This document shows positions 1,937 to 28,717 of a DNA stretch of 36,144 nucleotides, one piece after another. Source of the DNA: Fidelibacterota bacterium. Its GTDB lineage: Bacteria > Fidelibacterota > UBA2242. The position numbers were made by a program, and so were the translations under genes. The stretch is taken from the NCBI GenBank assembly GCA_016782645.1, contig JADHYC010000023.1, positions 1 through 36,144 of the forward strand, read 5' to 3'. The notes under the pieces are model-generated. The model saw only the letters and a list, made by a program, of their open reading frames with translations, was not told where the DNA came from and did no database searches. Position 1 is the stretch's first letter; each line of letters begins with the position of its first letter.

Positions 1937-2006
1937 TATTAAAAATTTTGTGAGTTAACTTGCAATTGATATTTAACTGAAGTTATTTTACTTTAAGAGG
2001 TTAATT

Positions 2007-4267: not shown

Positions 4268-4530
4268 TGCATGGTCACTTTTTGGTAACCTATCCCCGTA
4301 AGTCCCTGATAATCAAGGCATGACAGGGTACTGAAAATCCCTGCCTGTCCGGCTCCTGTCGGATGTCGGCGGTTTCCGGCAGCTGCCGGATCCCGAGCCA
4401 CAACTCAAACCCTTTGTAAATCAACAGTTTACAAGGGGGTTTTTATTTTCTACATTTTAGGTGAAATATAGCCAATAGGGACAAATAGGGACATACTGGG
4501 ACATAGGGTAGTGACTTTTTGGTGACTTTA
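4268..4530. repeat. Dispersed repeat R1, copy b
   Basis: Nearly base-for-base match to 28718-28890 and a diverged match to 1395-1560. Two 16-base palindromes are embedded: TCCGGCTCCTGTCGGA (near 4348-4363), which copy a lacks, and TCCGGCAGCTGCCGGA (4375-4390), which replaces the different palindrome of copy a. Downstream (about 4476-4508) are three spaced GGGACA direct repeats at roughly 10-base intervals, then a second TGACTTTTTGGTGACTTT motif. The arrangement resembles an integration site with arm-type repeats. No gene is visible. Confidence 0.68.
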
Positions 4531-4907: not shown

Positions 4908-5120
4908 ACTAAAAATCTTCTGGAGATTTACATATCTTAGTGGTTATATTCTTTTATGAGTGGCATTAAAGTGATGAGGGACTTAAGGTAATTGGACTAA
5001 GTAGTATCAAACCTCAAAAATATCCATTCTGGCAGCCTCCATGTGACTCAAGGAGCGGAGCCACATTTAAGAGTTATTGGAACCTCTCGGGAAGTATGAT
5101 TTTCAATAAAGTTCACGGAA

Positions 5121-5183
5121 TTTTATGCGACACAAAAAGCTGCATATAAGCATTTATGTAAGCTGCATAAACCTATGTTAGGT
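5121..5183 (+). other. attC-like site, R3 type (copy a), upstream of the Lnt-like cassette
   Basis: The segment ends in a right box GTTAGGT (5177-5183). Its arms pair as TTTATGC (near 5122) with GCATAAA (near 5165). A TATAAGCATTTAT core lies inside, the same core seen at 16049-16111 and 34862-34912. No clear left CTAAC box is seen, so the site is degenerate or only its right part survives. Confidence 0.5.
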
Positions 5184-5274
5184 GGCAAAAACAATGACCA
5201 GCCATCCCGGAGTCGCTTATCAAAAACACGGCTAACAGTTCGCTAAACATTGAGATATCATAAGGAGAATTTGC

Positions 5275-6741
5275 ATGAACATGAATAGAGATAACGTGGA
5301 ACGCCTCGGTAGCGGGTTTATCGGTGCCATCCTGATCTTTTTTATTGGCTGGCACTGGCATGTTGCTATCGCCGTCTGGCTGTCCGTAATATTGCTGGTT
5401 CGTTCCTTCAGGATGACGGAAAAATGGTACGGAACCCTTCCAATATTGGGGACGACAGTTCTTTTCCGTTATCTGAGCATTACCGGTGGTTGGGATATGC
5501 CTTTCTATATGGAATTTGCCTTCAGCCTGCTGGTGCTGCTGCCCCTTTGGGCAGCCTTGTACACCGACCGCTGGTACGCTCGTTCCGGGAGGCGACTCGG
5601 TGCGCTGCTGATGTTCCCTCTGGTGTATACAGCCGGCGACTTTCTGCTGGGCTTTTCCCCAATTGGGACGGTCTTTTCCCCGGCGGTGGGCCAGTTCAGT
5701 TATGCGGCTCTTGCGCAGACTGTCTCCCTGACAGGCTTATGGGGGCTCACGTTCCTGATTGGCCTAACGGCGACGACAGTGAACTATATCTGGGAAAACG
5801 GCTTTGATCTGCGAAAGATTGGACGCCCCGTGGCTGTCCTGGTCGCTGTATTTGCCCTGCTCCTGGCTTATGGCTACGGCAAGATCCTACTGACCCGCCC
5901 ATCCGATGGGACCGTCCGCGTCGCGGGTATTACTGAACCCCACCTCAGTGATTATTGGTCCATTACCGACAACGGAGCTCCCCGTGAGAGCAAGGCCGAG
6001 TACACCCCCGAACTAACGGCTATGCAGAACCGTCTCTTTGCTCAGAGCCAACGGGCCGCAGAATACGGGGCCCAGATCATCTTTTGGAGCGAGGGAAACG
6101 CTGTCATGTACGAGGACGACCTGGATACTTTCTTGGAACGTTCCCGGACCTTTGCCCGTGAGCACGGAGTGTACTTTGCGCCCACCCCCCTGGTTCTACG
6201 TTACGATCGGATGAAGAACGACAATCTGATATACCTCTTTGGTCCCGACGGGGATATCCTCTTTCGTTACGAAAAGACCATTTCCTGGTATCCCACGGAC
6301 TCTGACGGAATTATTCCCTCTGTCGAGACCCCTTGGGGCACCCTATCGGCGGTCATCTGTTTCGACTTGGACTTTCCCCAGTTCGTGCGACAGGCCTACC
6401 AGCAGGATGTGGACATCTTGCTGGTGCCCGGTTACGACACAGAGCCTATCAGCCCCTTTCACACACAGATCGGGTGGCTCAGAGGGGTAGAGTACGGCTT
6501 TTCCGTCTTCCGTCAGGCCAACAAGTCCACCTCTATTGCAACGGACTATAACGGGAATGTCTTGGCTTATCAGAACTATTTCGACACCAGCGATCGTTTG
6601 ATGATCGCCGATGTCCCCGCGAAGGGTATCTGGACAATCTATGGTACAGTCGGGGACTGGTTCATTGCATTGGTCTGGGCGACACTGGCAGCGGTGGTTG
6701 TCCTGACTGTCCGGGACCTCGCCCGACGGCGGAAAGGTTAG
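5275..6741 (+). CDS. Apolipoprotein N-acyltransferase-like membrane protein (CN-hydrolase domain)
   Basis: This 488-residue protein begins with several hydrophobic segments (about residues 10-45, 50-95, 108-170, 185-205). A nitrilase/CN-hydrolase domain (about 213-450) and a final membrane segment (about 462-478) follow. This is the layout of Lnt, which adds the third acyl chain to lipoproteins at the periplasmic face of the inner membrane. The catalytic residues appear present: Glu273 in FWSEGN, Lys334 in RYEKTISWYP, Cys362 in AVICFD. Lnt normally has ICYE, so the FD here suggests a divergent or Lnt-related enzyme. AAGGAG precedes the ATG by about 7 bases. Base composition is clearly more GC-rich than the neighbours. 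An attC-like site lies on each side, so it looks like a single-gene cassette acquired from elsewhere. Lnt-like function is likely; the true substrate is unknown. Confidence 0.82.
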   Translation: MNMNRDNVERLGSGFIGAILIFFIGWHWHVAIAVWLSVILLVRSFRMTEKWYGTLPILGTTVLFRYLSITGGWDMPFYMEFAFSLLVLLPLWAALYTDRWYARSGRRLGALLMFPLVYTAGDFLLGFSPIGTVFSPAVGQFSYAALAQTVSLTGLWGLTFLIGLTATTVNYIWENGFDLRKIGRPVAVLVAVFALLLAYGYGKILLTRPSDGTVRVAGITEPHLSDYWSITDNGAPRESKAEYTPELTAMQNRLFAQSQRAAEYGAQIIFWSEGNAVMYEDDLDTFLERSRTFAREHGVYFAPTPLVLRYDRMKNDNLIYLFGPDGDILFRYEKTISWYPTDSDGIIPSVETPWGTLSAVICFDLDFPQFVRQAYQQDVDILLVPGYDTEPISPFHTQIGWLRGVEYGFSVFRQANKSTSIATDYNGNVLAYQNYFDTSDRLMIADVPAKGIWTIYGTVGDWFIALVWATLAAVVVLTVRDLARRRKG

Positions 6742-6834
6742 CAAATATCGATCACTCACTCCCCAGCAAACCAGCAGAAGCACAAGTTGTGTCATGCGGG
6801 GTATTGTCTGGTCTATCTTGTTGGGTGTTTTGCC

Positions 6835-6965
6835 ACCTAACAATTCATTGGAGCTGACGTGGCTATCATGGAGCTTTGCGAGGGTTGCAGAGGTAACTAA
6901 CTGAGGTTGGTGGGCGATGGCTCAGAGCATGGGCGCCGCCACGCAGCTCAATTCAACCGTTATAC
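6835..6965 (+). other. attC recombination site after the Lnt-like gene
   Basis: Left box ACCTAAC (6835-6841) and right box GTTATAC (6959-6965) bound an imperfect inverted repeat. AGCTG-A-CGTGGC on the left pairs with GCCACG-CAGCT on the right, leaving an unpaired A on one arm. Such extrahelical bases are the hallmark of integron attC sites. The roughly 130-base length is in the range of long (VCR-like) sites. Confidence 0.82.
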
Positions 6966-7026
6966 TGCATCTGATAGAAAGTTGAATAGTATCTAAATTC
7001 TTATTTTATAATTTGAAGGGTATTCA

Positions 7027-9567
7027 ATGATAGGCAAAACTATTTCTCACTATAAAATCATGGAAAAACTCGGCAGTGGAGGCATGGGTGTCGTCTATAA
7101 GGCAGAAGACACCAAACTCAAACGTACCGTTGCGCTTAAATTTCTTCCACCAAGTCTGTCTATCGATTCCGAAGCTAAAAACCGCTTTATACATGAAGCC
7201 CAGGCCGCTTCCGCCCTCGACCATACCAATATTTGTACGATTTACGAAATTGATGAAACCGATGATCATCAATTGTTTATGGCCATGTCCTGCTATGATG
7301 GAGAAACACTCAAACAGAAGATTGAGCATGGACCTCTCCCATTTAAGGAAGCAAGTTCCATTGTTTACCAAATCGTCCAGGGTCTGGCTAAAACACATGA
7401 AAAAGGCATTATCCACCGCGATATCAAACCAGCCAATATCATGATTACCAATGATGGCGTGGTAAAAATTTTGGATTTTGGTTTAGCCAAGTTGACCGGG
7501 CGAACCATGCTGACCAAAGAAGGTACGACTCTGGGAACCATATCTTACATGTCACCGGAACAGACACGGGGCGATTCGGTTGACCATCGCACTGATATAT
7601 GGTCGTTGGGGATTATCTTTTATGAGATGCTCACAGGACAGTTGCCCTTTAAAGGTGAATACGATCAGGCTGTGATGTACTCCATCCTGAATGAGGAGCC
7701 TAATCCAGTATCTTCCCTAAATGATAATATGCCCACTGAATTGGATCAGATTATTACAAAGATTATGGCTAAAAAACCCGATGATCGTTATCGTCAGATT
7801 GATGAATTCATCGAAGATTTATTGCATCTAAAAGAAGGTACATTAAAAAAAAGGAAAAGATTGAAGCGAACCGAAAAGAAACGTTTACTATTTCTAACCT
7901 CCATCAGTGTAATTGTACTTATTGTTTTTACAGTATTATTTTATCCGACTAAAACCATACCATTCTCAGAGAGAGACTGGATACTAATCACTGACTTCGA
8001 AAATCATACCAATGAAAGCATTTTTGATAAATCGCTTTACACTGCCTTTTCCTTGAGTATAGATCAATCCCGATATGTTAATGTTTTATCGAAACGCAGA
8101 ATGCTGGAAACACTAAAACGAATGAAGAAATCAGGTACAAAAGTTATTGATGAAGAAGCTGGGCGTGAAATTGCAATCCGTGAAGGAATTGGCATCTTTG
8201 TCGCACCAAGCATTAGTCGGGCAGGAGAAAAATATGCTTTGATGGGGAAAATACAGGAAGTTAAAGGCAATAATATTTTAGAATCTGAAGTTCTTTATGC
8301 AGATGGAAAAAATGAAATACTTGAGACATTAGACAAGTTAAGTCATAATATACGTAAAGAACTGGGAGAGTCAAGATTTTCAATTGCCACTCGGAGCAAA
8401 CCTTTAACTAATGTCACAACTTCCTCATTAGAGGCTCTCAAGCAATATTCTCTGGGAATTGAGAACCATTTAAATTTGAATTTTGAACAAGCAAAGAACT
8501 ATTATGAGAATGCTCTAAAAATTGATACAAATTTCACTTCTGCAAGAGCGTCTTTAGGAAATCTTCTTTTTGAAAGATTTGATCGCAAAAAAGGCAAAGA
8601 ATTATTAGCAGAGGCTGTTAAATATGTAGAAAACCTGACGGATAAGGAAAAGTATGGCATTTTAGCATTTCACGCTATCAATGTTGAAAATGATTATGAA
8701 AAAGGGATAAAATTCACCAGAATGCGTATTGATTTGTATCCGGATGACCCTATTGCACATAATAATCTGGGCTGGTACTATCATAATTTGGGTAGATTTA
8801 ATGAAGCAGTATTAGAGTATAAATCCGCATTAAAAATTAATCCCTACTTGCTGCTTACTTACGGCGGCCTTATCTGGATTTATTGTGAAAAATTAGCCCA
8901 ATTGGATTCCGCTATGGTCTGGTCAAAGCATCTGCTTTTCTATGATGATGAAAATGCATGGGGATATTTTTATTTAGGCTCTTCGTATGTGGGTAAGGAT
9001 AGTCTTTCTGAAGCTGAACGGGCTTATAAAAAAGCCTCTGAATTAAATCCAAATTTAAATCTTAATACTTATCGCCTGGCCCATGTATATCGACTTCAGG
9101 GTCAATATCAAAAATCAATTCAAATTTTAAAAGGAATGCTTAAAGTCCATATGAATGAAGCATCGGCCCATTATGATTTGGGTATTAATTATCAAATGAT
9201 GGGTGATATACAAGCAGCAAAAAAACATTTTTCCAGATTTAAAGAATATGCTGAGAAATGGGTGCAAGATAGTCCGGAAAACGCAGCATCATATATATCT
9301 TTGGCAGTGGTGTTGACAAGACTTGGTGAGAAGCAACAGGGCTGGGATATCGGCTGCAAAGCGATTGAGCTTGACTCCACTCTTCATTTAAGTTTTGCGG
9401 AATTACTAACTACTCAAGGCAAAAAGGAAAAAGCCCTTATACATTTAGAGAAAGCGTTGCAGAAGGGATATAAAAATCTGGTCTGGTTGAAATTAAATCC
9501 CGATTTAGAATTGCTGCAGAATGAACCCGGATATAAAAAATTGATAAATCAATACTTTATCGAATAG
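7027..9567 (+). CDS. Membrane-anchored Ser/Thr protein kinase with TPR repeats (first of tandem pair)
   Basis: Residues 8-268 form a Hanks-type kinase: glycine loop GSGGMG (16-21), Lys38 in VALKF, Glu57, HRD 130-132 with Lys134 and Asn137, DFG 150-152, SPE 176-178 and Asp190. All catalytic residues are present. A basic stretch and one transmembrane helix (about 286-306) follow. An extracytoplasmic region comes next (about 315-445), resembling the TolB-N/FlgO-like domain found in such kinases, then tetratricopeptide repeats to the end. The protein should phosphorylate cytoplasmic targets, with sensing by the outer TPR part. GAAGGG lies upstream of the ATG. The next gene is a paralogue after 67 bases, so the two are probably cotranscribed. 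Flanking attC-like sites suggest both entered as one long cassette. The target is unknown. Confidence 0.9.
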   Translation: MIGKTISHYKIMEKLGSGGMGVVYKAEDTKLKRTVALKFLPPSLSIDSEAKNRFIHEAQAASALDHTNICTIYEIDETDDHQLFMAMSCYDGETLKQKIEHGPLPFKEASSIVYQIVQGLAKTHEKGIIHRDIKPANIMITNDGVVKILDFGLAKLTGRTMLTKEGTTLGTISYMSPEQTRGDSVDHRTDIWSLGIIFYEMLTGQLPFKGEYDQAVMYSILNEEPNPVSSLNDNMPTELDQIITKIMAKKPDDRYRQIDEFIEDLLHLKEGTLKKRKRLKRTEKKRLLFLTSISVIVLIVFTVLFYPTKTIPFSERDWILITDFENHTNESIFDKSLYTAFSLSIDQSRYVNVLSKRRMLETLKRMKKSGTKVIDEEAGREIAIREGIGIFVAPSISRAGEKYALMGKIQEVKGNNILESEVLYADGKNEILETLDKLSHNIRKELGESRFSIATRSKPLTNVTTSSLEALKQYSLGIENHLNLNFEQAKNYYENALKIDTNFTSARASLGNLLFERFDRKKGKELLAEAVKYVENLTDKEKYGILAFHAINVENDYEKGIKFTRMRIDLYPDDPIAHNNLGWYYHNLGRFNEAVLEYKSALKINPYLLLTYGGLIWIYCEKLAQLDSAMVWSKHLLFYDDENAWGYFYLGSSYVGKDSLSEAERAYKKASELNPNLNLNTYRLAHVYRLQGQYQKSIQILKGMLKVHMNEASAHYDLGINYQMMGDIQAAKKHFSRFKEYAEKWVQDSPENAASYISLAVVLTRLGEKQQGWDIGCKAIELDSTLHLSFAELLTTQGKKEKALIHLEKALQKGYKNLVWLKLNPDLELLQNEPGYKKLINQYFIE

Positions 9568-9634
9568 AACAAATAATTATCCGAATTAATTGATGCTATA
9601 AAGAGATTAGCAAAACTACAACAGGATACCTAAT

Positions 9635-12205
9635 ATGATTGGCAAATCAATTTCACATTATCGAATCATTGAAAAACTCGGTGAAGGCGGAATGGGCGTG
9701 GTTTATAAAGCCGAGGACACCAAACTCAAACGTTTCGTTGCTTTAAAATTTCTTCCGTTGCAATCGTTAAGTAACGAGGAGGAAAGAACACGGTTAGTGC
9801 ATGAAGCACAGGCAGCAGCCTCTTTAGACCATCCGAATATTTGCACAGTACACGAAATAGATGAAGTAGATGGCAATACTTTTATTGCAATGGCCTACAT
9901 CGATGGTCAGAGCCTAAAAGGAAAAATTGATTCAGGCCCTTTAAAAATAGAAGAATCACTAAATATTGCCATTCAAATTGCTGAAGGACTCCAGGAAGCG
10001 CATGAAAAAGGAATTGTTCATCGGGATATTAAAAGCTCCAATATTATGTTCTCTTCCAAAGGACAAACAAAAATCACCGATTTTGGATTAGTAAAGTTGT
10101 CCGGTCGGACAAAGCTTACCAAAACAGGCACAACAATGGGTACAGTTGCCTACATGTCTCCTGAACAGACACAGGGCGCAACTGTAGACCATCGCGCAGA
10201 TATCTGGTCCTTTGGTGTGATGCTATATGAAATGATCACGGGACAACTTCCCTTTAAAGGAGATTACGACCAGGCAGTTGTCTATTCCATTGTGAATGAA
10301 GAACCGGAGCAGATAACAGGAGTGTGCACTGGCGTACCGATAGAATTGGAGCGCATCATCAACAAGGCCATGGCCAAGAATCCCGAAGAGCGCTATCAGC
10401 ACGTAGATGAAATACTGGTTGATTTGCGTTCTGTTGCAAAAGAAGCACTGATTAAAATCAAACCAGAGGAGAGTGTCCCTGTTGTTGAAGTATACGAAAA
10501 GGAAGAGTCATTTCAGTTTACTAAGCGTAAAAAGCGCAACAAAAAAATGGCATTGCTGATTGCTGCAGTGACCGCGATTGCGTTGGTGGCCTCAATTATC
10601 TTTATCATACAGAAACAAAGATCCAAATTCATTGCGAATCGGATCGTCGTTGTACCATTTGAGAATAAAACAGGCGATGAATCTCTGGACATGTTAGGTC
10701 AGATGGCAGCCGAAATGATTACCCAGGAGATGTCACAAATAAGTGAACTTGAGGCTGTTCCATTTATATCCGTGATGGATTCATATTCGAAAAAGAAGGA
10801 GAAACCCTCTGCATACACTGTTGCGGCGCAAAATGAAGCGGGTGTTCTTATAACAGGGTCCTACTACTTACAGGGTGAAGACCTTTTCTTTCGGGCAAGT
10901 ATCATGGAGGCTGAGCATAAAAAACTCCTTGAGTCGCCATCGCCGGTAAAAGGTTCTTCCAAAACCCAGGATGTGGTTCTCGAAAGATTATGCAGTCAGA
11001 TTCTAGGCGCCCTTGCCATTTATTTTTATTATGATGTTCAAACCGGTCAAGCGTATATACCTTCATTCGAGGCGTATAAAGAATTTCAGATAGGGATGGA
11101 ACTTTTTGGCATCGACTACGATAAGGCAAGAAGCCATTTTTACAAGTCTGTTGAAATGGATTCTGCATTTACACTTCCTCTGCGATACATAGCAGTATCT
11201 TATTCTAACCAGGGCCAAAATGCCAGGGCAGATTCCCTATATGACTTAATTAACAAGCATCGAGAAAAGTTGGCCCAATTTGACCGTATCATGCTTGATT
11301 GGGGTATTGCAGATAATTCTGGTAATCTGGCAAAAGCGATGAGATTTCTGAGAAAGGCCGAAGAACTTGCTCCAAGAAATTATGTAATCAAATTAATCAT
11401 CGGCGGGAACGCGATATGTCAGAATCTTCCTCAATTAACTGTAGACACCTATGCTGAATTTGGATATGAGAGAATGGCTGAGGAGATTAGGGGGGAGTGG
11501 TGTCTCGGGGTTCTAACCGAAGCACTGTATATGCTTGGAGAGTACGAAGAGGCTTTGGATGTCATTCATTTCTCTCGCCAACATTTTCCTGATCAATCAT
11601 CAAATCTGAGGTATGAAGCAATTTTGCAGGCGGCACGCGGTCAAATTCAGGACGTTTACAGGGTTATCGATGAAAGCTTTCGTCTATCAGGTTCTGCACC
11701 TGGCAGCGTGATGCGTGATGCCGCGATGGCCCTCAGGGCGCATGGGCATAAAGATGTTGCTTATGAGGTGCTCAAACGATCATTAACATGGTACAAATCT
11801 CGCATTAGCGGAGACCATCGATACTCTATTGCTCGAGTATTGTATTGTAATGAGCAGTGGGCAGAGGTGCAACAGTATTTTGAACAGCTTTATCGAGAAT
11901 ATCCAAACAATCAGAACTACCAAGGATATACGGGCATTGTGGCAGCCCGATTGGGAGACCGGGAAAAGGCAAACAGGATTTTAGAAGAGTTACATAGTAA
12001 AGACGAATCTTATCTGTTCGGATCTCATCTTTATTGGTGCGCCAGGATCGCTGCAGTACTTGGTGAACAAAAGCGCGCCGTTGATCTGCTGCGGGAGGCA
12101 TATGGTCAAGGCTGGGGTTATGGAATGTACGAGCTTTTAGAAATGGATTTTGAATCACTTCACAACTATAAACCATACATTGAGCTTATGCGCCCAAAGG
12201 GTTAA
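9635..12205 (+). CDS. Membrane-anchored Ser/Thr protein kinase with TPR-like repeats (second of tandem pair)
   Basis: The 856-residue paralogue of the preceding gene shares MIGKxISHY, KLGxGGMGVVYKAEDTK and most of the kinase core at equal positions. Visible are the glycine loop GEGGMG (16-21), Lys38, Glu57, HRD 129-131 followed by DIKSSN, DFG 149-151 and SPE 175-177. One membrane helix lies at about 303-325. A TolB-N/FlgO-like segment (about 333-460, starting RIVVVPFENKTGDES) and a long helical TPR-like region follow. The outer domains have diverged far more than the kinase domains, which suggests a shared catalytic module with different inputs. AGGATA precedes the start. A third, dead copy of the same gene start lies at 12275, so the family has been duplicating here. 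Confidence 0.9.
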   Translation: MIGKSISHYRIIEKLGEGGMGVVYKAEDTKLKRFVALKFLPLQSLSNEEERTRLVHEAQAAASLDHPNICTVHEIDEVDGNTFIAMAYIDGQSLKGKIDSGPLKIEESLNIAIQIAEGLQEAHEKGIVHRDIKSSNIMFSSKGQTKITDFGLVKLSGRTKLTKTGTTMGTVAYMSPEQTQGATVDHRADIWSFGVMLYEMITGQLPFKGDYDQAVVYSIVNEEPEQITGVCTGVPIELERIINKAMAKNPEERYQHVDEILVDLRSVAKEALIKIKPEESVPVVEVYEKEESFQFTKRKKRNKKMALLIAAVTAIALVASIIFIIQKQRSKFIANRIVVVPFENKTGDESLDMLGQMAAEMITQEMSQISELEAVPFISVMDSYSKKKEKPSAYTVAAQNEAGVLITGSYYLQGEDLFFRASIMEAEHKKLLESPSPVKGSSKTQDVVLERLCSQILGALAIYFYYDVQTGQAYIPSFEAYKEFQIGMELFGIDYDKARSHFYKSVEMDSAFTLPLRYIAVSYSNQGQNARADSLYDLINKHREKLAQFDRIMLDWGIADNSGNLAKAMRFLRKAEELAPRNYVIKLIIGGNAICQNLPQLTVDTYAEFGYERMAEEIRGEWCLGVLTEALYMLGEYEEALDVIHFSRQHFPDQSSNLRYEAILQAARGQIQDVYRVIDESFRLSGSAPGSVMRDAAMALRAHGHKDVAYEVLKRSLTWYKSRISGDHRYSIARVLYCNEQWAEVQQYFEQLYREYPNNQNYQGYTGIVAARLGDREKANRILEELHSKDESYLFGSHLYWCARIAAVLGEQKRAVDLLREAYGQGWGYGMYELLEMDFESLHNYKPYIELMRPKG

Positions 12206-12274
12206 ATGATAATTAAGAATAAAAAACTTAGAATGAAGTAGGATTTGTTAGTAAATTTGTCTGAAGACGATTTT

Positions 12275-12340
12275 ATGATCGGCAAAACCATCTACTAATA
12301 CGATATCATGGAATGACTTTGCTGAGGCATAAAGATCATT
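12275..12340 (+). pseudogene. Vestigial start of a third Ser/Thr kinase
   Basis: From ATG at 12275 the DNA aligns with the first about 65 bases of the kinase gene at 7027: ATGAT-GGCAAAAC-AT, then ATCATGGAA and CTGAGGCAT. The frame reads MIGKTIY-stop-YDIME-stop, so three or more nonsense changes have accumulated. Similarity fades after the glycine-loop region. It is the remnant of another tandem kinase copy. Confidence 0.7.
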
Positions 12341-12391
12341 AAATTCGAACTTCGAATATTATTAATGAAAATCATATTCTTTGTATTCACA

Positions 12392-12583
12392 GTATAACAA
12401 GCGCATGAAGCCGACACGTTAATCGAGGCCTCTCAAGTTGCTTGTTTTGGTTTTGTAGCGTTTCGAGTAGCTGGTGGTGGCACTGCGAAACCCGAACGTC
12501 CAGAGCATTCTCGAAAGCTTAGATTGTATCCAAAAGTTTTGTGCGCTTTCATCCTTGCGCCGCTCAGCACCTAGTCGTTAGAA
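12392..12583 (+). other. Degenerate attC-like site after the kinase pair
   Basis: Left box GTATAAC (about 12392-12398) is followed by GCGCATGAAGCCGAC. Near the right end, GCTTTCATCCTTGCGC is an imperfect complement of GCGCATGAAGC, and the right box GTTAGAA is at 12577-12583. Pairing is weaker than at the other sites and the element is about 190 bases long. It may be decayed or carry an insertion. Confidence 0.48.
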
Positions 12584-12600
12584 GCAGGGAGGCCGTATTT

Positions 12601-13554
12601 ATGCATGCATTCCATAATCTTGTAAATGCGATTCTCGTCATTGTGTTTATTTATGCATTAGCTCTTTTACTGCGACGGAAAGGGACATTAACAGAAGAAC
12701 ATTCTCTGACCCTTGCCCGCATCGTTACAGACTTGTGTTTGCCGGCCATAATTTTCGTGAGTCTGGCAAAGCAGTCAATCCGGTTGGATCAAATAGCCCC
12801 GGCTCTAGTCATGTTGGGCCTGGAACTTTTCTGTATTGCTCTGGCCTGGAGTATTAGTGCCTTGCTGAAGTTCAACAAAGCACAACAGGGAGCAATTATC
12901 TTCTGCTCAGCATTCGGTTCCTCAACGTTTCTGGGTTATTCGATTATCATGCAAATGTTTCCACACACGCCTGAAGCTCTCAGCGAAGCCGTTCTTATTT
13001 CAGAAATAGGCGTTGGGTATCCAATCTTCATTTTGGGTCCCAACCTTGCCGCCTATTTCGGTTCAGAAAAATTAGAGGCAAAATTACAGTGGAAATCGTC
13101 TCTGGCCTTTTTCAAATCCCCTGTATTTTTCGCATTGCTCATTGGCCTTCTTTGGTGCTCTTTTCGACTACCCGGTCAAGAGAATGCCTTTCTGGCTCCG
13201 ATATTCCAGCTCTGCAATGTATTAGCCTCGGCTCTGACGCCGCTTGCCATTTTATCGGTTGGCCTCATGTTCAAGTTGCCCCATCTGCGCAAGATAATAG
13301 CGCCTCTGACAATTGTAATTCTCCTGAAATTAATAATTAAACCCCTACTTGCCAGTTCTCTTGCAACCCAATTTGGTTTTCCTGAACTCTGGAAAGAGGT
13401 TTTGGTTCTTCTAGCCGCAATGCCTCCTGCTGTTCTTGGAGCGGTTTTCTTGAGACGTTATGGTGGAGACGCTTCATTGGCATCAGCACTGCTGCTGGCG
13501 GCAAGTCTCGTAAGCTGCGTGACTCTTGTGGGCGTATTCTGGATGATTGGATAG
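12601..13554 (+). CDS. AEC-family transporter (auxin efflux carrier type)
   Basis: This 317-residue membrane protein has about ten hydrophobic segments in the two-bundle AEC/Mem_trans (PF03547) layout. Recognisable stretches are LRRKGTLTEE after helix 1, LCLPAIIFVSLAK in helix 2, and a helix with SSTFLGYSIIMQMF. The C-terminal half begins at about residue 170 (FFKSPVFFALLIG). AEC proteins move organic anions such as malonate, malate or related compounds across the inner membrane. The substrate cannot be told here. The frame is open further upstream to a GTG at 12541, but that lies inside the attC-like site. GGGAGG at 12587-12592 with 8-base spacing fixes the start at ATG 12601. It is a typical one-gene cassette between attC sites. 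Confidence 0.87.
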   Translation: MHAFHNLVNAILVIVFIYALALLLRRKGTLTEEHSLTLARIVTDLCLPAIIFVSLAKQSIRLDQIAPALVMLGLELFCIALAWSISALLKFNKAQQGAIIFCSAFGSSTFLGYSIIMQMFPHTPEALSEAVLISEIGVGYPIFILGPNLAAYFGSEKLEAKLQWKSSLAFFKSPVFFALLIGLLWCSFRLPGQENAFLAPIFQLCNVLASALTPLAILSVGLMFKLPHLRKIIAPLTIVILLKLIIKPLLASSLATQFGFPELWKEVLVLLAAMPPAVLGAVFLRRYGGDASLASALLLAASLVSCVTLVGVFWMIG

Positions 13555-13576
13555 CGTTACTGTCTTGATATGAATC

Positions 13577-13636
13577 TTCTAACAAGGCTAATGCAGCCGA
13601 CGCAAAAAACAGCGCGGCTGATTAGCGGCATTAGGC
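13577..13636 (+). other. attC recombination site after the AEC transporter
   Basis: A compact 60-base site with left box TTCTAAC (13577-13583) and right box ATTAGGC (13630-13636). The arms are GCTAAT-G-CAGCCG-A-CGC and GCGCGGCTGATTAGC. They pair fully except for two unpaired bases (G and A) on the left arm, the classical attC signature. The right box has A where the recombination G is expected, so the site may be weakened. Confidence 0.85.
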
Positions 13637-13655
13637 ATAATAGAAAGGAATTAAT

Positions 13656-14243
13656 TTGATAAGATATCATCGATTATTTATAATAATAGGCTTGATTTTA
13701 TTATTTTCTTGCGAAAATCATAACAAGGAGATTTTATCGAATTCTACATCAGAAGAGTTACTTGCTATGTTCCAAGAGGATCAGGCTGTAAGAACTGGTA
13801 AAATTGAAGTAGAATCTATTAAATCAGGTAAAAAGAGACGACTACGAGTACTGGAATTGTTATCACAAAATAAAATAAATAGTGCACAAGATAAAATGTA
13901 TGCAGCATATATTCTTCAGCACACTAGTCTTCGCTATTGTGGTGAAAAGTTGGTCAGTTCAAGTCCTGAAAATTGTTACCTTGCTCATAAACTAGCATGT
14001 GAATCCCTAAAGATGGGTAACGAACAAGCACGTCAATTAGTTGCTGCTACTATTGACCGCTATTTAGTGTATACAAAAGGTATTCAAAAATATGGAACAC
14101 AGCGAGGATATAATTCTGAAACTGGTCAGGAATATCTACTTTCAATTGATTCAACTACAACAGATGCAGAACGAAAAAAATATGGTGTTCCACCGCTAAA
14201 TGAATTGAAAAAGAAATATCCATTTAATGAAAGCGGTGGTTAA
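13656..14243 (+). CDS. DUF6624-like lipoprotein
   Basis: This 195-residue protein starts at TTG (13656), with AAAGGA about 8 bases upstream and no in-frame ATG nearby. A hydrophobic leader ends in the lipobox LFSC (Cys19), so it should be lipid-anchored after processing. The middle and end carry the pattern AAYILQH, YLAHKLACES, TIDRYL, QKYGTQ and YGVPPLNELKKKYP. This resembles the DUF6624 family, whose function is unknown. It sits between a clear attC site and a second site fused to repeat R2, so it is a single-gene cassette. Family assignment is from remembered motif pattern and should be treated as probable, not certain. Confidence 0.65.
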   Translation: MIRYHRLFIIIGLILLFSCENHNKEILSNSTSEELLAMFQEDQAVRTGKIEVESIKSGKKRRLRVLELLSQNKINSAQDKMYAAYILQHTSLRYCGEKLVSSSPENCYLAHKLACESLKMGNEQARQLVAATIDRYLVYTKGIQKYGTQRGYNSETGQEYLLSIDSTTTDAERKKYGVPPLNELKKKYPFNESGG

Positions 14244-14255
14244 AAATACAGAAGC

Positions 14256-14380
14256 GCCTAACGAATTCACTTCACACCTGACGCCATAAGGATATCCGAA
14301 AATCTTTAATTCGGCGTCAGTATGCAGGCAGGAGTTGAACAACCTACTATGATAAAAGTCATATGATAGATCCGGAAAAC
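14256..14380 (+). other. attC-like left arm joined to repeat R2 (copy 2)
   Basis: GCCTAAC (14256-14262) is a good attC left box 12 bases after the stop codon. CACCTGACGCC (14275-14285) then pairs with GGCGTCAG (14313-14320). Between them is ATATCCGAAAATCTTT-ATTCGG, the same hairpin as at 130-190 near the IS110 gene. No GTTRRRY right box is found at the expected distance, only AGTTGAAC near 14334. Either the site is degenerate or its right part was replaced. Confidence 0.5.
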
Positions 14381-14454
14381 ATTGTATTAAAAACTGGATA
14401 CATATCTAAGGAAATTGGATATATAAGTACATAAAAAATATAGAATCAGCATTG

Positions 14455-15510
14455 ATGAAATTTAATAACAAACATCACTTACTCATTACTCTTATTATGA
14501 TTAGCACTATGAGTATTTTTTCATGCAGTAAAGATTATAAAACCGACAGATTTTTTAAAATTTATCATGGAAACACAGTTCCCGGAGCTGCATTAATGAT
14601 CATTCATAAAGGTCAAAAAATAGTAGTAAAAACTTATGGAATGGCTAATCTTGAGGATAGTATTTCAGTCACAAGATATACAAATTTTAGATTAGCCTCC
14701 GTCACCAAGCAGTTTACAGCTATGTGTATTATGATTCTAAGAGAGCGCGGCAAATTGGATTATAATTACACGCTTAATGACATTTTCCCAAAATTTCCCG
14801 ACTACGGTAGAGAGATTACAATCAAGAATCTTCTGCAACACACATCCGGTCTTATTGCTTATGAAGACCTCATTCCCGATACTTCAACTAAACAGGTATT
14901 GGATAAAGACATTTTACAAATGATGATACAAGTTGACAGCACTTATTTTACACCTGGGACAGACTACCGCTACAGCAATTCAGGATATACCGTATTGGCA
15001 ATGATTGTAGAGAAGATATCCGGAAAATCATTTGTAGAATTTCTCAAAGACGAAATCTTCACTCCACTTAATATGAAAAATACAGTCGCCTTTGAGAATG
15101 GAATTTCAGAGGTGGAAAATCGTGCTTATGGCTATACTGTTGAATCTGATTCCATTAGATTCTCTGACCAGAGCACAACAAGCGCCGTTTTAGGAGATGG
15201 CGGAATATACACCTCCATTGAAGACCTTTACAAATGGGATCAGGCACTATATTCTGAAAAATTAGTTACTTCTGAAACTCTTCAGAAGGCTTTTACACCG
15301 GCATTGAAAAACTATGGATTCGGATGGCGAATTGACGAATACAAAGGTCGTTTTCGTGTACACCATACGGGAAGCACCTGTGGTTTTCGCACTATAATTC
15401 AGCGTTTTCCCCTGGATGAATTCACGGTTATAATTCTGACAAATCGCAGAGATCCCAACGTAGATAAACTTGCTGATAAATTAACTGATATGTACCTAAT
15501 CGAAAGATAA
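14455..15510 (+). CDS. Serine beta-lactamase-fold hydrolase, lipoprotein (class C / PBP-like)
   Basis: The 351-residue protein has a leader ending in lipobox IFSC (Cys24). The beta-lactamase-like serine hydrolase fold follows, with nucleophile motif Ser82-Val-Thr-Lys85 (SxxK), Tyr173-Ser-Asn175 (YxN) and His304-Thr-Gly306, the usual KTG/HxG strand. Such proteins act as esterases, D-aminopeptidases or penicillin-binding-type enzymes in the periplasm. Antibiotic resistance cannot be inferred. ATG 14455 is preferred to the overlapping TTG at 14452. The ribosome-binding site is weak. The TAA at 15508 is followed in the same frame by about 106 open codons encoding a T9SS sorting domain, so the present protein has probably lost its secretion tail. 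Confidence 0.83.
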   Translation: MKFNNKHHLLITLIMISTMSIFSCSKDYKTDRFFKIYHGNTVPGAALMIIHKGQKIVVKTYGMANLEDSISVTRYTNFRLASVTKQFTAMCIMILRERGKLDYNYTLNDIFPKFPDYGREITIKNLLQHTSGLIAYEDLIPDTSTKQVLDKDILQMMIQVDSTYFTPGTDYRYSNSGYTVLAMIVEKISGKSFVEFLKDEIFTPLNMKNTVAFENGISEVENRAYGYTVESDSIRFSDQSTTSAVLGDGGIYTSIEDLYKWDQALYSEKLVTSETLQKAFTPALKNYGFGWRIDEYKGRFRVHHTGSTCGFRTIIQRFPLDEFTVIILTNRRDPNVDKLADKLTDMYLIER

Positions 15511-15831
15511 TCGTCACCAAAATCTATTTTAAGTAAGCTCAACAAGCCAAATACATCGAATGCTGAATACTTTCGGTATGGGTTTCTATTCTGGAAAAAT
15601 CCATTTAATGCTACTACAACAATAATATATGAATTATCTAAGACAGATATTATCACACTTAATATTTTCGATATGCTTTGTAACTTAATTGAAATTCTCG
15701 TGAACACCACTCAAGAACCTGGTCAATATTCTATCGATTGGAATGCTACTAAATATCCGTCAGGTATATATATAATTCAGATGAAGGTAGGAAATTTCGT
15801 TCAGAGCGAAAAATGCTTGTTATTAAAGTAA
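15511..15831 (+). pseudogene. Detached T9SS sorting domain, in frame with the beta-lactamase-fold gene
   Basis: Reading on past the TAA at 15508-15510 in the same frame gives an uninterrupted stretch to the TAA at 15829. It contains KNPFNATTTIIYELSK, LNIFDMLCNLIEILVN, PGQYSIDWNATKYPSGIYII and a KCLLLK end. This is a T9SS type A sorting domain with an eroded NYPNPFN motif. It has no start codon or ribosome-binding site of its own. A single stop codon therefore separates a hydrolase from its former secretion signal, unless read-through occurs. Confidence 0.8.
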
Positions 15832-15834
15832 TCC

Positions 15835-16111
15835 ACCTAACAAATAAGAATTTGCAACGACGTTTCTGTCGTAATCAATCCAGGGTTCAAGAAGCCCGGA
15901 TTTCTCAGAACAATGGATATATAGGGATCCTTATGTGGAAAGATGGCTCTAAAACAGACTATTCTTGCAATTGCATATTCCAATTGACTTGCTCAAATCT
16001 TATGCTTAACATAGGATTAACAATGAATTACAAAGAAACAGGCTGGAATTTTATACGACATGAAAAGCTGTCTATAAGCAGTTATCCGAGTCGCTCATGT
16101 ATATGTTAAAA
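15835..16111 (+). other. attC-like region ending in R3 repeat (copy b)
   Basis: Left box ACCTAAC (15835-15841) lies just after the sorting-domain stop, and the right box GTTAAAA is at 16105-16111. The last about 60 bases (16049-16111) are an R3 repeat. TATA-CGA-CATGA pairs with TCATGTATA around a TATAAGCAGTTAT core, matching 5121-5183 and 34862-34912. The total length of about 277 bases is long for one attC, so an insertion or two fused remnants are possible. An open frame across it lacks gene-like features. Confidence 0.5.
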
Positions 16112-16219
16112 GGAATAATGACTTTCAAATCCCAAATAGACATAAAAAAAGCAATAAGTTAAATAATGCTAAAGAAGTGTTAATCTAAAACATAGCCGTT
16201 TAATAGGAGGAAATCTAGA

Positions 16220-18088
16220 ATGGGAATTAAAATGTGCAATCTTAAAGATATGTTACCTATTAGAATTATTAGCAATTCAAATACCAGAATATTGAAGGTT
16301 TGTGTCATGTTTATGGTTCTATTCATTATGGGTATAAATACAAAAACCGTAGGCCAACCCTACTATGTGGACCCGAATGGCAATGACAACAACTCCGGCA
16401 CATTAGCAGAACCTTGGAAAACCATTCAAAAAGCTGCTAACACTCTTACCCCCGGCGACACCGTGTATGTGCGCGGTGGTGTTTACAACGAAAAAATCAC
16501 ATTAAACGTCTCTGGTTCCGCCAATAACGGTTACATCACCTTCCGAAACTATGAAAACGAGGTACCCATTCTGGACGGTACCGAACTGTCTGTACCTGAT
16601 GGTAACAACGGCATGTTCTTGATTGTGGATCAGCATTATATCATTATCGAGGGCTTTGAAATACGCAATTATCGTACTTCTACACCGGACATTATCCCCG
16701 TTGGTATCCACATAAGAGGTGATGCTCACCACATTCAATTAAAAAACAACCACATTCACCACATCGAAACCAATGCCCCCGTTGATGAAGACCTGATGGG
16801 CGCAGATGCACATGGTATCGCCGTGTATGGCACTTCTTCTCCTGATTCTATCAACAACATCCTCATCGAGGGTAATGAACTCCACGACCTCATCCTGGGC
16901 TCAAGCGAAGGATTGGTCATAAACGGCAACGTGACACTATTTACCGTTAGCAACAACATCGTTTATGATTGCGACAACATTGGCATAGATTTCATCGGTT
17001 TTGAGGATACTGCTCCCAATAGCGACTATGATCAGGCTCGTGGCGGTGTTGTTAGTGATAACATTGTTTATAACATCACCTCCTTTGGCAATCCAGCTTA
17101 TGGAAATGAGTACAGTGCTGGAGGTATTTACGTTGACGGTGGCAGGGACATCGTCATAGAGCGAAATACAATTTTCCAGGCTGACATTGGCATAGAAATA
17201 GCCAGTGAACACCAAGGTCGGGCTACTAGCTATATAACCGTGCGTAGCAACTTTTTGTTTAAAAGCCGCATGGCAGGTATTGCAATGGGAGGATACGATA
17301 CGGAGCGTGGCAGTACAGAGAATTGTATTATCGTCAATAACAGCTTGTATCATAATGGAATAGGTGAAGATGGAAATCAAGAAATCCTGTTACAGTTCAA
17401 CACGCTAAACAATATTATTAAGAACAACATCTTTTACGCCGATGATCAAAGTATCCTGATTGGTAATCCCTTCACCGAAAACATTAATAATGTAGTTGAT
17501 TATAACTTGTATTTTCATCCATCAGGTATCGATGACTGTGAGTTTGAGTGGCAAAACGTCATATATCAAGGCTTTGCTGCGTACAAATCAGCTACAGGAA
17601 ACGATAGTCACTCGTTATTTGTTACGCCACAATTTGCTGATCTTAACGAGCCTAATCTGCATTTACTGACTGCATCCTCCGCCATCAATGCGGGTGAGAA
17701 CCTACCGGAGATTGGTGATTATGATATAGATGGCCAAACAAGGGTTCAAGGAGGCATAGTAGATATTGGGGCGGATGAATTTAGCGAGACAATAGATGTT
17801 TCTGAGGTTGAGACAAACGTGCCTCAGGAATTTGCCCTAAAGGCGAATTATCCAAATCCATTCAATGCAGTTACAATAATATCATACCAACTACCAGAGT
17901 TATCATTTGTGAATCTTTCAATTTATAATGTTAATGGACAATTAGTAGAGATATTGGTAAACGAGAAAGTGCAAACAGGATATCGTAATGTAACGTGGAT
18001 TTCAACCAATGTTAGCTCAGGAGTGTATTTCTACAAACTATCAGCTGGTGAATATTCAGCTATTGGTAAGTGCCTGTTGTTAAAGTAA
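16220..18088 (+). CDS. Secreted right-handed beta-helix protein with T9SS sorting domain
   Basis: This 622-residue protein starts at ATG 16220 behind a strong TAGGAGG. The signal peptide is unusually late (hydrophobic core about residues 29-42, ending VGQ). The mature start YYVDPNGNDNNSGTLAEPWKT (residues about 47-67) is the DUF1565/parallel beta-helix opening, followed by IQKAANTLTPGDTVYVRGG. Many short strands with Asn and Gly turns continue to about 510. This fold is typical of pectate-lyase-like enzymes and adhesins. I see no catalytic set that names a substrate. Residues about 540-622 are a T9SS sorting domain (NYPNPFNAVTIISYQLPE...CLLLK). It is flanked by attC-like sites on both sides, so this large secreted protein looks like a cassette. 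Confidence 0.85.
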   Translation: MGIKMCNLKDMLPIRIISNSNTRILKVCVMFMVLFIMGINTKTVGQPYYVDPNGNDNNSGTLAEPWKTIQKAANTLTPGDTVYVRGGVYNEKITLNVSGSANNGYITFRNYENEVPILDGTELSVPDGNNGMFLIVDQHYIIIEGFEIRNYRTSTPDIIPVGIHIRGDAHHIQLKNNHIHHIETNAPVDEDLMGADAHGIAVYGTSSPDSINNILIEGNELHDLILGSSEGLVINGNVTLFTVSNNIVYDCDNIGIDFIGFEDTAPNSDYDQARGGVVSDNIVYNITSFGNPAYGNEYSAGGIYVDGGRDIVIERNTIFQADIGIEIASEHQGRATSYITVRSNFLFKSRMAGIAMGGYDTERGSTENCIIVNNSLYHNGIGEDGNQEILLQFNTLNNIIKNNIFYADDQSILIGNPFTENINNVVDYNLYFHPSGIDDCEFEWQNVIYQGFAAYKSATGNDSHSLFVTPQFADLNEPNLHLLTASSAINAGENLPEIGDYDIDGQTRVQGGIVDIGADEFSETIDVSEVETNVPQEFALKANYPNPFNAVTIISYQLPELSFVNLSIYNVNGQLVEILVNEKVQTGYRNVTWISTNVSSGVYFYKLSAGEYSAIGKCLLLK

Positions 18089-18115
18089 AAATTGGATAAA
18101 TACGGTGGATATTCC

Positions 18116-18248
18116 TTCTAACCCTCAGTCCACCAGACGCCAAAAGAGTGTAGCGTGGTTTTACTGGTTTGGAGTTAAGCGAAAGTGAGTAGCTATTTCA
18201 AACGTTCCGATGACAAAATTTTGGCGCAGGTGACTTGCCCAGTTAGGC
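18116..18248 (+). other. attC recombination site after the beta-helix gene
   Basis: Left box TTCTAAC (18116-18122) and right box GTTAGGC (18242-18248) span 133 bases. CAGTCCACCAGACGCCAAAA on the left pairs with TTTTGGCGCAGGTGACTTG on the right, with small mismatches and unpaired bases. It is a convincing long attC. The right box is a perfect GTTRRRY match. Confidence 0.87.
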
Positions 18249-18275
18249 CTTTAATTTAACGGATGGAGGTGTAAA

Positions 18276-19679
18276 ATGTATAGAAAAGTGTTGACATTAT
18301 ATCTTATCTCTTTAATTCTAATTATTTCATCACATAGTTTTGCTCAACAATTATCTCCACAAGAAAAAGAATGGCTTACAAAGTCTTATCGCAGTGAGAA
18401 AAATGGGTGGATATTTTTACATATCGAAGGAAAACCTTTTGAACGAGGATTCCAACGTGGGTATTTGACTGCAAACGAAATTGAAGATTTCTTCAAAATG
18501 CTGGATCATACAGAAAAATTTGAAACCGCTAAAGAGATTGATTTTTTTATCGATGCTGCTGCTATGCTTTTCAAGGATAACGTTTCTGAAGAATATGTTG
18601 AAGAGATGAAGGGTATGGTGCAAGGGATGAGGAGTGCAGGTAAAAAAATCACTTATGAAGAGATGCTGTTTATGAATGGATTTATCGATATACTCTGGCA
18701 TTGGTGGCCTCAGGAGGCGGAAAAGGAGAAAATACCCGACCCAGGTTGCAGCGCTTTTATCGCCACAGGCGGGGCAACAGCCGATGGCAAAATCATTATG
18801 GCTCATAATTCCTGGTATTTCTATTATAGTCTTCGATTTTGTAATATTATTGTAGACATCGTTCCAGATAAGGGACATCGTATTTTAATGCAATCATGGG
18901 GTCCTTGTTTGTATAGTGCCACAGATTTTTTCATTACTGCGGCCGGTTTGGTCGGTACAGAGACCACAATCGGAAAATTTAGCGGATTCAACAAAGAGGG
19001 TTCACCCGTCTTTGAAAGAGCGAGAAAAGCAATGCAATACGCAAATAACATTGATGAATGGACCCAGATAATGATCGAAAACAACAATGGAGCTTATGCC
19101 AATTCGTGGCTATTGGGAGATATTCGAACTAACGAAATTGCTCGCCTGGAACTGGGATTAAAGCATCATAGTGTAGAGAAAAAGAAGGATGGCTATTTTA
19201 CAGGCTCAAATATTGTGGATAATATAAACATTTTGAGAGAGGAAACCGATGCGTCTTATGATGACGTAAGAGATTTTTGCGTCGCTCGCCGTGTACGTTG
19301 GAAACAGTTAATGGAAAAACACTATGGTAAAATTAATGTCGAAATTGCCAAGAGCATGCTGGCTGATCATTATGATGTTTATTTAGAGAAAGAAGAACCA
19401 AGCTTCAGAACGATTTGTGGTCATTGGGAAACAGACAATGGAATTGTACCAGGCACTTGGGGTGCATATTTGCCAGGAGGTGCTATTGATGGCAAAGTCG
19501 TTGACTCGGAGATGGCTAAAAATTGGAAACTTTGGGCAAGATGGGGTCATCCCTGTGGCATAGAATTTAATGCCAAGAAATTTATTGAAAAACACGAGCA
19601 ATATGAGTGGGTAGAAGAATATTTATTAGATATACCTGCTATGCCATGGACTATATTTCCAATCATGGAAATGAAATAA
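18276..19679 (+). CDS. C45-family Ntn-hydrolase / phospholipase B-like protein, secreted
   Basis: This 467-residue protein begins with a signal peptide (ending SFAQ). A region with GKPFERGFQRGYLTA (about residues 52-66) follows, then the core motif PGCSAFIATGGATADGKI (about 156-173) and IIMAHNSW. A Cys followed by SAF, with an upstream ERGxQxG element, is typical of C45 acyltransferase/peptidase and phospholipase B-like Ntn-hydrolases. In these, Cys158 becomes the N-terminal nucleophile after self-cleavage, splitting off the roughly 135-residue linker left after the signal peptide. Family members hydrolyse amide bonds in N-acyl compounds or release fatty acids. The true substrate is unknown. 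GGAGG lies about 7 bases before the ATG. It is a single-gene cassette between two good attC sites. Confidence 0.82.
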   Translation: MYRKVLTLYLISLILIISSHSFAQQLSPQEKEWLTKSYRSEKNGWIFLHIEGKPFERGFQRGYLTANEIEDFFKMLDHTEKFETAKEIDFFIDAAAMLFKDNVSEEYVEEMKGMVQGMRSAGKKITYEEMLFMNGFIDILWHWWPQEAEKEKIPDPGCSAFIATGGATADGKIIMAHNSWYFYYSLRFCNIIVDIVPDKGHRILMQSWGPCLYSATDFFITAAGLVGTETTIGKFSGFNKEGSPVFERARKAMQYANNIDEWTQIMIENNNGAYANSWLLGDIRTNEIARLELGLKHHSVEKKKDGYFTGSNIVDNINILREETDASYDDVRDFCVARRVRWKQLMEKHYGKINVEIAKSMLADHYDVYLEKEEPSFRTICGHWETDNGIVPGTWGAYLPGGAIDGKVVDSEMAKNWKLWARWGHPCGIEFNAKKFIEKHEQYEWVEEYLLDIPAMPWTIFPIMEMK

Positions 19680-19724
19680 TCTTTATAATATTTAATCCAT
19701 CTACCATTAATTAATAATATCTTG

Positions 19725-19822
19725 GCCTAACCCTGCGCTGTAGCCGATACCGCCACGGCGAACGCCATGACATGTTCAAAATTACAATTAGTGCCGGTGC
19801 GGCTAAGCGCAAAACATTATGC
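19725..19822 (+). other. attC recombination site after the C45 hydrolase
   Basis: Left box GCCTAAC (19725-19731). Left arm GCGCT-G-TAGCCG pairs with right arm CGGCTAAGCGC, leaving an unpaired G. The right box is degenerate (ATTATGC, 19816-19822). The outer boxes are weaker than the arms, so the site may be old. Confidence 0.78.
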
Positions 19823-19850
19823 CTAAAAAGAATAATTTGAGAACTTAATT

Positions 19851-20780
19851 ATGATGAATATTATAAGCTATAACAAAAAAATCATTTTAATACACATCTT
19901 TCTTTCTTATGTAATTTTATTATTATTTGGGGGGTGTAACAACAAAGATGATAAAACCGATAAGAATATAAAATCGAACATCATACAAATCAGTCGTGGT
20001 GATACTTTGATTAATTCATTTGGGATAGAATTAATTTATATACCAGCTGGTGAATTTAGGATGGGTAGTCGAGAAACACCTGAAGAAGTAGTAAATACTG
20101 AAGGTGGAAAAGTAGAATGGTATCGTCGTGAAAATCCAATTCATAAGGTGAAAATTTCCAAAGGATTCTATATAGGGATTACAGAAATTACTCAAGAACA
20201 ATATGAAGCAGTAATGAATAAAAATCCAAGTAAATACAAAGGCGATAACTTACCTGTTGAAAATGTGACATGGAAAGATGTAGTTAGATTTTGTAAAAAA
20301 TTAAGTGAAATCGAAAAGAAAACATATCGATTACCTACAGAAGCAGAATGGGAATACGCTTGTAGGGCAGAAACAAATACAAGATTTGCTTTTGGGAATG
20401 ATTATAATACAGTTAATAATTTTATGAATTACTGTGATAAAAGTAATACTTGTGGATATTGGTGGCAAAACAAAGAGCATGACGATGGTTTTGATAGAAC
20501 TTCTCCAGTAAAAACTTATAAACCAAATGCTTTTGGATTATATGATATACATGGAAATGTTTGGGAGTATTGTAGCGACTGGTATTATCATGATTACTAT
20601 GCTAATAGCCCAACCATAGACCCCAAAGGACCTTTATCGGGTCAATATCGTGTTCTTCGTGGTGGTTCCTGGCATGATGGACCTGCATATTGTCGTGCAG
20701 CATTTAGAAATAGAAATGAACCTGATTATACTTGTGATGATAATGGATTTCGAATTGTACTTGAAGCATCTAAATATTGA
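19851..20780 (+). CDS. FGE-sulfatase (SUMF1) domain lipoprotein
   Basis: The 309-residue protein has a leader ending in lipobox LFGGC (Cys29). The formylglycine-generating-enzyme-like domain (PF03781) then covers about residues 60-305. Clear landmarks are YIPAGEFRMGS, ITEITQEQYEAVM, PVENVTWKDVVRFCKKL, YRLPTEAEWEYACRA, GLYDIHGNVWEYCSDWY, RVLRGGSWHDGPAYCRAAFRNR and NGFRIV. Only one Cys stands in the region where true FGEs have a catalytic Cys pair, and no sulfatase is nearby. It is better read as a binding or structural SUMF1-domain surface protein than as a proven sulfatase activator. Two adjacent ATG codons (19851, 19854) are possible starts and the ribosome-binding site is weak. It is flanked by attC sites. 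Confidence 0.85.
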   Translation: MMNIISYNKKIILIHIFLSYVILLLFGGCNNKDDKTDKNIKSNIIQISRGDTLINSFGIELIYIPAGEFRMGSRETPEEVVNTEGGKVEWYRRENPIHKVKISKGFYIGITEITQEQYEAVMNKNPSKYKGDNLPVENVTWKDVVRFCKKLSEIEKKTYRLPTEAEWEYACRAETNTRFAFGNDYNTVNNFMNYCDKSNTCGYWWQNKEHDDGFDRTSPVKTYKPNAFGLYDIHGNVWEYCSDWYYHDYYANSPTIDPKGPLSGQYRVLRGGSWHDGPAYCRAAFRNRNEPDYTCDDNGFRIVLEASKY

Positions 20781-20803
20781 TAATAGAATTTTTAGTAAAA
20801 ATG

Positions 20804-20932
20804 GCATAACAAAAAAATCAACCTGACTGGAACAGCGATTGGCGAATTTTGATTTTTTTGTGCTCACAGAATGTTTTTTAAAAATATTGAAATACAGTGC
20901 GCCGTATGTTCCAGCTTATTTTAACGTTAGAT
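20804..20932 (+). other. attC recombination site after the FGE-domain gene
   Basis: Left box GCATAAC (20804-20810) and right box GTTAGAT (20926-20932) span 129 bases. Inner arms TGGAACAGCG and CGCCGTATGTTCCA pair with unpaired bases in one arm. The right box fits GTTRRRY fully. Confidence 0.8.
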
Positions 20933-21008
20933 GCAAAGAAAAGAAAAAAATATAAAGAATTAAGACATCTAACTAGTATTTACTAATTTGATAAAATGGA
21001 GGTTGAAA

Positions 21009-28657: not shown

Positions 28658-28684
28658 TATTTACTTCAAAAGCACATTAATAAC

Positions 28685-28714: not shown

Positions 28715-28717
28715 ATT

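Follow-up and report, generated by a model that had tools for sequence, protein, structure and literature searches.

Clusters of attC sites with no adjacent intI gene have been proposed to be degraded integrons (PMC9024848). In Treponema integrons intI is transcribed toward attI (PMC3607928). The archaeal integrons found in MAGs have attI downstream of intI, are mostly CALINs and commonly carry cassette proteins with signal peptides, and secreted and membrane proteins are common in cassettes (PMC9668308). Cassettes of the delta-attI type exist in mobile integrons (PMC12901181).

We analyzed one entire contig (C11) of 36,144 bases, hereafter the window, from a MAG assigned to Neomarinimicrobiota, an abundant uncultured marine phylum. 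As in sedentary chromosomal integrons and CALINs, two classes of IntegronFinder, the window contains single genes bounded by attC, in one orientation and of heterogeneous origins. A CALIN is defined by two or more attC within 4 kb in the absence of a neighboring intI, the 4-kb clustering rule being the one used in published surveys; three sites at 18116, 19725, and 20804 were found spaced by 1.1–1.6 kb. Unlike what the rule allows, the gap from 13636 to 18116 is 4.5 kb, and because this exceeds 4 kb only the three sites in 18116–20932, and perhaps 12392/13577, would cluster. Standard tools using the 4-kb rule would therefore split the array.

The Treponema-like layout, in which intI reads toward attI and the cassettes follow downstream, was found on contig C38 of the host MAG, in genomes G008 and G010 and in others, but phylum and attI sequence differ from Treponema, and in at least one relative, G037, the layout is divergent as is standard. 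In the window itself, the orientation of an IntI relic is the sole fit to this layout. A position of attI downstream of intI is also shared with the archaeal integrons, and so, apparently, are a predominance of CALINs and frequent signal-peptide proteins among the cassettes, while the host here belongs to a bacterial phylum. Like the delta-attI-type cassettes, some cassettes here have attI-like sequence at their 3′ end (window 16043–16111 and contig C48); unlike them, the element is a composite of 217–278 nt with an R″-like start, known from sequence alone.

We conclude, with a probability of about 0.9, that this part of the Neomarinimicrobiota chromosome holds a sedentary integron cassette array, partly decayed and now apart from a working integrase. 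The original prediction of a degenerate integron array in an FCB host was borne out by attC sites in a common orientation, an intact IntI in the genome, IntI relics, and one cassette found at two loci with breaks at G^TT and inside attC. The kind of system is known, in a phylum for which no integron report was found: the open-access full texts searched, with subscription papers outside the scope, returned no report combining integron, attC, and Marinimicrobia. Intact integron parts and a cassette at two loci are now placed in this phylum.

Genomes and Search Methods

The MAG has a total of 2.56 Mb and an estimated contamination of 4.7%. The integron integrase on its contig C38 is 81 and 78% identical to IntI of two Candidatus Neomarinimicrobiota MAGs, and for this reason the host was assigned to the FCB phylum Neomarinimicrobiota. 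The host genome (G000) was examined as chosen stretches and not as a whole. Genome G001 was the sole further genome of the host genus among the relatives listed; window positions 28679–36144 are collinear with its contig C55 at 95%.

Sites were searched on both strands with a gapless pair model made from 59 attC of integrons in other phyla, including no Marinimicrobia site. Aligned without gaps, these 59 attC showed covariation in the expected arms. In 100 first-order Markov shuffles, each of one strand of the window, the maximum was 17.9 bits, with 0 expected at 18 bits or above. The identical model peaked at 12.7 bits in approximately 83 kb of host genome outside arrays. A covariance model (R1), for which the training sites had been cut to 52 nt, therefore missed attC with long loops; it was usable genome-wide for short attC, and in the window this limit left it with 13577 and 12392 only, both weakly. 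An Rfam search and a tRNA scan of the window gave no matches.

attC Sites in the Window

The blind scan returned the five strong sites of the original prediction as its five best matches in the window, all on the plus strand and with scores of 24.0–49.5 bits. They are located at 6835–6965 (49.5 bits, R′ GTTATAC), 13577–13636 (28.1 bits, R′ ATTAGGC), 18116–18248 (32.9 bits, R′ GTTAGGC), 19725–19822 (24.8 bits, R′ ATTATGC), and 20804–20932 (24.0 bits, R′ GTTAGAT). A sixth plus-strand site that had not been predicted, at 35838–35896 (21.5 bits), closes an ORF for a 126-aa membrane protein (35463–35843). The pair model gave six sites above 21 bits, compared to the shuffle maximum of 17.9. A cruder structure scan also ranked four of these sites highest. 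Terminators were considered as an identity for the strong sites and dismissed. The 13577 site has a near-identical twin (93%) on contig C39 that closes a different gene, and the 20804 site has a 73% relative on C108.

The R″/L″/L′/R′ arrangement is accompanied by a canonical fold in four of the six sites. As had been predicted, the bottom strands of 6835, 13577, 18116, and 19725 each form a single long hairpin in which isolated extrahelical bases stay unpaired on one of the two arms, while the minimum-energy folds of 20804 and 35838 contain no canonical long hairpin. Fold energy alone was better than that of shuffles only at 13577 (z −4.0) and 19725 (z −2.8), and the case for attC is therefore carried by the box and arm model and not by energy. 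In place of GTT, R′ of 13577 and 19725 starts with ATT, and the G of the crossover is missing.

The weaker predicted sites had different outcomes. The site at 12392–12583 (plus strand) scored 14.9 bits, a level at which 0.1–0.2 matches are expected per strand. It has a classic 5′ half and a classic 3′ half that are mutually non-complementary, which makes it ambiguous as an attC. Two others stood as members of dispersed attC-like families. The site at 14256–14340 (plus strand, R′ GTTGAAC) scores weakly alone; copies of its family are present on contigs C59, C39, C45, and C97 of the host and C116, C195, and C112 of G001. The long site at 15834–16111 (plus strand) has R′ GTTAAAA at 16105 and an attI-like 3′ half. 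It too scores weakly alone; repeats of its family lie on other host contigs, and the same composite closes a cassette on C48, in an array that also has a 39.1-bit attC beside another type IX-sorted protein. The copies of each family open with a YAAC box directly after a gene. A further copy of the first family, at 105–231, is an attC-like hairpin without the R″ box. The candidate at 5121 was rejected as an attC; it resembles the attI-like sequence that follows the integrase, with GTTAGGT at 5177.

Integrase Genes and attI-like Sites

Contig C38 of the same MAG encodes a full-length, intact IntI (TIGR02249, 484.6 bits; cut-off 265). The window contig has no intact IntI and no physical join to C38. 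It carries an N-terminal IntI relic at 1826–2002 (plus strand; TIGR02249 positions 1–59, E 2e-9) with the motif LLDQ..R..HYS.RTE.AY..W.K.FI.FHNK, the rest of the gene being lost. The relic is located upstream of the array and shares its orientation. Further IntI relics were found on host contigs C107 and C108, and the top IntI match of G001 is partial with two stops.

In this MAG and in several other Neomarinimicrobiota, an attI-like sequence ending in GTTRRRY is located approximately 150–250 nt past the intI stop. By position and sequence, attI is predicted at about 2601–2640 of locus L001, where it ends in GTTAGAC, with analogs in loci L015, L043, L095, and others. In G008 and G010, attC follow IntI in the same orientation. 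The window has two attI-like sites on the plus strand. One, at 5117–5183, ends in GTTAGGT (5177), has a motif in common with the site that follows IntI on C38, and is 84–86% identical to copies on C102 and on C52 of G001. The other, at 34863–34912, ends in GTTAGCC and opens another short run of cassettes, with genes for a cupin and a small membrane protein, in a region that is 95% collinear with C55 of G001. In MAG BS750m-G17 the last bases of the contig (locus L014) are ..GTAGTTA, the attI crossover, which is what a variable first cassette would produce if it had interrupted the assembly there.

Of 61 Neomarinimicrobiota genomes, 19 had an IntI scoring above the cut-off of the family, and attC were detected in 27 of 149. 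Other contigs of the host MAG also contain further attC.

A Cassette Present at Two Loci

The cassette at 16106–18242 (plus strand) encodes a 622-aa beta-helix protein (16220–18088). As had been claimed, this is a protein sorted by the type IX system: the C-terminus has a type A sorting domain (TIGR04183, 41.6 bits; cut-off 23), and Pfam agrees. Window positions 16105–18156 match contig C197 of G001 with 90% identity at a different locus. The first matching bases are precisely GTTAAAAGG, where the G^TT crossover (16105/16106) is predicted, in R′ of the site beginning at 15835, and the identity ends within the attC at 18116–18248. Past this end, the 3′ arm of the attC is similar again, with CAGGTGACTTG followed by CCCAGTTAGGC or GCCCGTTAGTAC, and the loop differs. 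The two attC copies (window 18116–18248; locus L217, 2139–2270) have both arms conserved and unrelated central loops.

In G001 the unit adjoins vapBC-like genes and rplM-rpsI-rpsB (gene names by reading translations). The host rplM-rpsI-rpsB locus is 97% identical to that of G001 and is joined to pyrC without an insert, and pyrC and rplM are adjacent in six further genomes of the family. Since the G001 locus differs and the host rplM-pyrC junction is uninterrupted, the 622-aa gene and its attC are located at different places in these two species of one genus. The cassette in G001 is 106 nt from the contig end, so that its far junction is outside the assembled sequence. Apart from 16105–18156, the rest of the array is absent from G001, and a discrete mobile unit cut at G^TT was found for the 622-aa cassette alone. 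A search of relatives for a cassette and its attC with other neighbors had been suggested as a check; the 622-aa unit beside rplM provides such a case.

Gene Content and Size of the Cassettes

All cassettes described below are on the plus strand. The first (5178–6959) contains a gene for an apolipoprotein N-acyltransferase-like carbon-nitrogen hydrolase (5275–6741; PF00795, with a TIGR00546 match below cut-off), which has a third-position G+C of 0.66 and just four remote matches in 148 relatives. An auxin efflux carrier-family transporter (12601–13554; PF03547) in the cassette at 12578–13630 had no homolog at E ≤ 1e-20 in the 148 other Neomarinimicrobiota genomes. The 13577 and 14256 sites bound a probable cassette (13631–14334) with a 195-aa lipoprotein-like ORF (13656–14243) that had no match in Pfam or NCBIfam. 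The next probable cassette (14335–16105) encodes a protein of the beta-lactamase/DD-peptidase fold (14452–15510; PF00144), in which an in-frame stop cuts off a type IX tail that continues in frame to 15831. Downstream of the 622-aa cassette, a C45/phospholipase B-like hydrolase (18276–19679; NF040521, 148 bits, cut-off 85) in the cassette at 18243–19816 gave no hit at E ≤ 1e-20 against the 148 other genomes. It is followed by an FGE-sulfatase-domain lipoprotein (19851–20780; PF03781) with a third-position G+C of 0.19 in the cassette at 19817–20926. The PI-PLC X-domain lipoprotein gene at 20988–22043 (PF00388) has an in-frame TGA, and no closing attC was found after it. Third-position G+C along the array spans 0.19–0.66. 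In contrast to the cassette genes, ackA on the same contig is present in 62 of the 148 relatives.

The bounded intervals measure 0.70, 1.05, 1.11, 1.57, 1.77, 1.78, and 2.14 kb, apart from a kinase interval of 5.6 kb; the boundaries of four intervals are weak or family-supported. One published benchmark implies that the largest annotated cassette is approximately 2 kb (PMC8352920), and the 0.70–2.14 kb found here is about the known range, so that the unusually large cassettes of the original prediction were mostly not recovered. The median length of attC-adjacent ORFs was 332 aa in the genus versus 163 aa in other Neomarinimicrobiota (p 1e-4) in a small, non-random sample.

Origin of the Array

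Each cassette here consists of one plus-strand gene with an attC-type site behind it. The host IntI on C38 would act at G^TT on the bottom strand of a folded attC and recombine it with attI or a second attC, so that cassettes may be gained, relocated, and lost gene by gene. As intI of this lineage mostly reads toward attI, the cassettes come after the integrase gene, which is the Treponema order. At the window locus, the integrase has decayed to the N-terminal relic. Some sites have diverged, with ATT in place of GTT or with halves that do not match, and some genes contain stops. We infer that the C38 IntI made the move of the 622-aa cassette and built the array.

Hairpin families such as those of 14256, 15835, and 105–231 do occur dispersed after genes in the host genome, and the hairpins could accordingly be terminators or dispersed repeats that follow genes by chance, the genes being ordinary horizontal acquisitions. 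This is highly improbable, because six sites fit the box and arm model of attC from other phyla far above shuffles, the breakpoint of the 622-aa cassette is exactly at the predicted crossover, and the host encodes an intact IntI. The array could also be real but owe its moves and reordering chiefly to repeats, through homologous recombination or tandem duplication, instead of to IntI. The region is repeat-rich (kinases, type IX tails, and the repeat families), the kinases are tandem paralogs and the local integrase is a relic. Against this, the breaks of the 622-aa unit are at G^TT and in attC and not in a longer shared repeat, and successive genes are unrelated to one another, as are their compositions, so that we give recombination between repeats a rather small chance.

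The interval 6960–12577 (plus strand) contains two tandem Ser/Thr kinase-TPR genes (7027–9567 and 9635–12205). The predicted two-kinase unit of more than 5 kb was confirmed as to the kinases, but its status as a cassette is doubtful. In favor of one 5.6-kb cassette, the largest of a normal array, the interval is placed between the attC at 6835 and the possible site at 12392–12583, and the C-terminus of the second kinase gave no hit at E ≤ 1e-20 against the 148 other Neomarinimicrobiota genomes. However, kinases of the MIGK..SHY type with TPR tails form tandem pairs at three places in the genome (window 7027–12315, C38, and C39), and the pairs on C38 and C39 have no attC. The interval also holds a third kinase relic near 12275, and its closing site is chimeric, with halves that do not pair. 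A single kinase cassette is therefore unlikely.

Type IX Secretion and Adjacent Elements

The array had also been described as tied to type IX secretion. This applies to two or three cassettes with a sorting domain and not to the array as a rule: the domain was found in two intact cassettes and one with a broken tail, and a C48 cassette has the same type IX tail by motif alone. An enrichment of type IX genes among cassettes was considered but not adopted, with 2 such genes in approximately 13 distinct attC-linked ORFs of the genus and 3 in 121 ORFs of other stretches, the choice of which was biased. No report in the open-access full texts searched combined integrons with type IX secretion. In the 622-aa case, the gene of a secreted surface protein has moved as a cassette, in keeping with the recognized bias of cassette contents to secreted and membrane proteins. 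We tentatively suggest, as a possibility with the odds somewhat against it, that Neomarinimicrobiota integrons circulate type IX surface-protein genes as single cassettes, the 3′ half of the cassette-end sites being derived from attI. If so, the outer-surface repertoire would be swapped gene by gene.

A repeated element, GGTAACTCGC..CCTGATAATCA..GGTACTGAAAATCC..CCGAGCCAC, was found after type IX genes at 1400–1530, 4283–4450, 28730–28880, and 33290–33370. The element from GGTAACTCGC to CCGAGCCAC resembles a tRNA 3′ end, and copies are present on C40 (96%) and on C55 of G001. An LVIVD-repeat type IX gene at 2007–4213 is split into two ORFs in different frames and is apparently frameshifted. At the contig end, positions 1–124 contain the end of an IS110-like transposase (by eye), with copies of 84–87% identity on C81, C70, and C105. 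The acetate kinase at 31545–32987 has a C-terminal extension (residues approximately 395–480) with a weak HTH match (PF01498); the G001 protein has the extension with 96% identity, while in almost every other relative the match covers just residues 1 to approximately 395–400.
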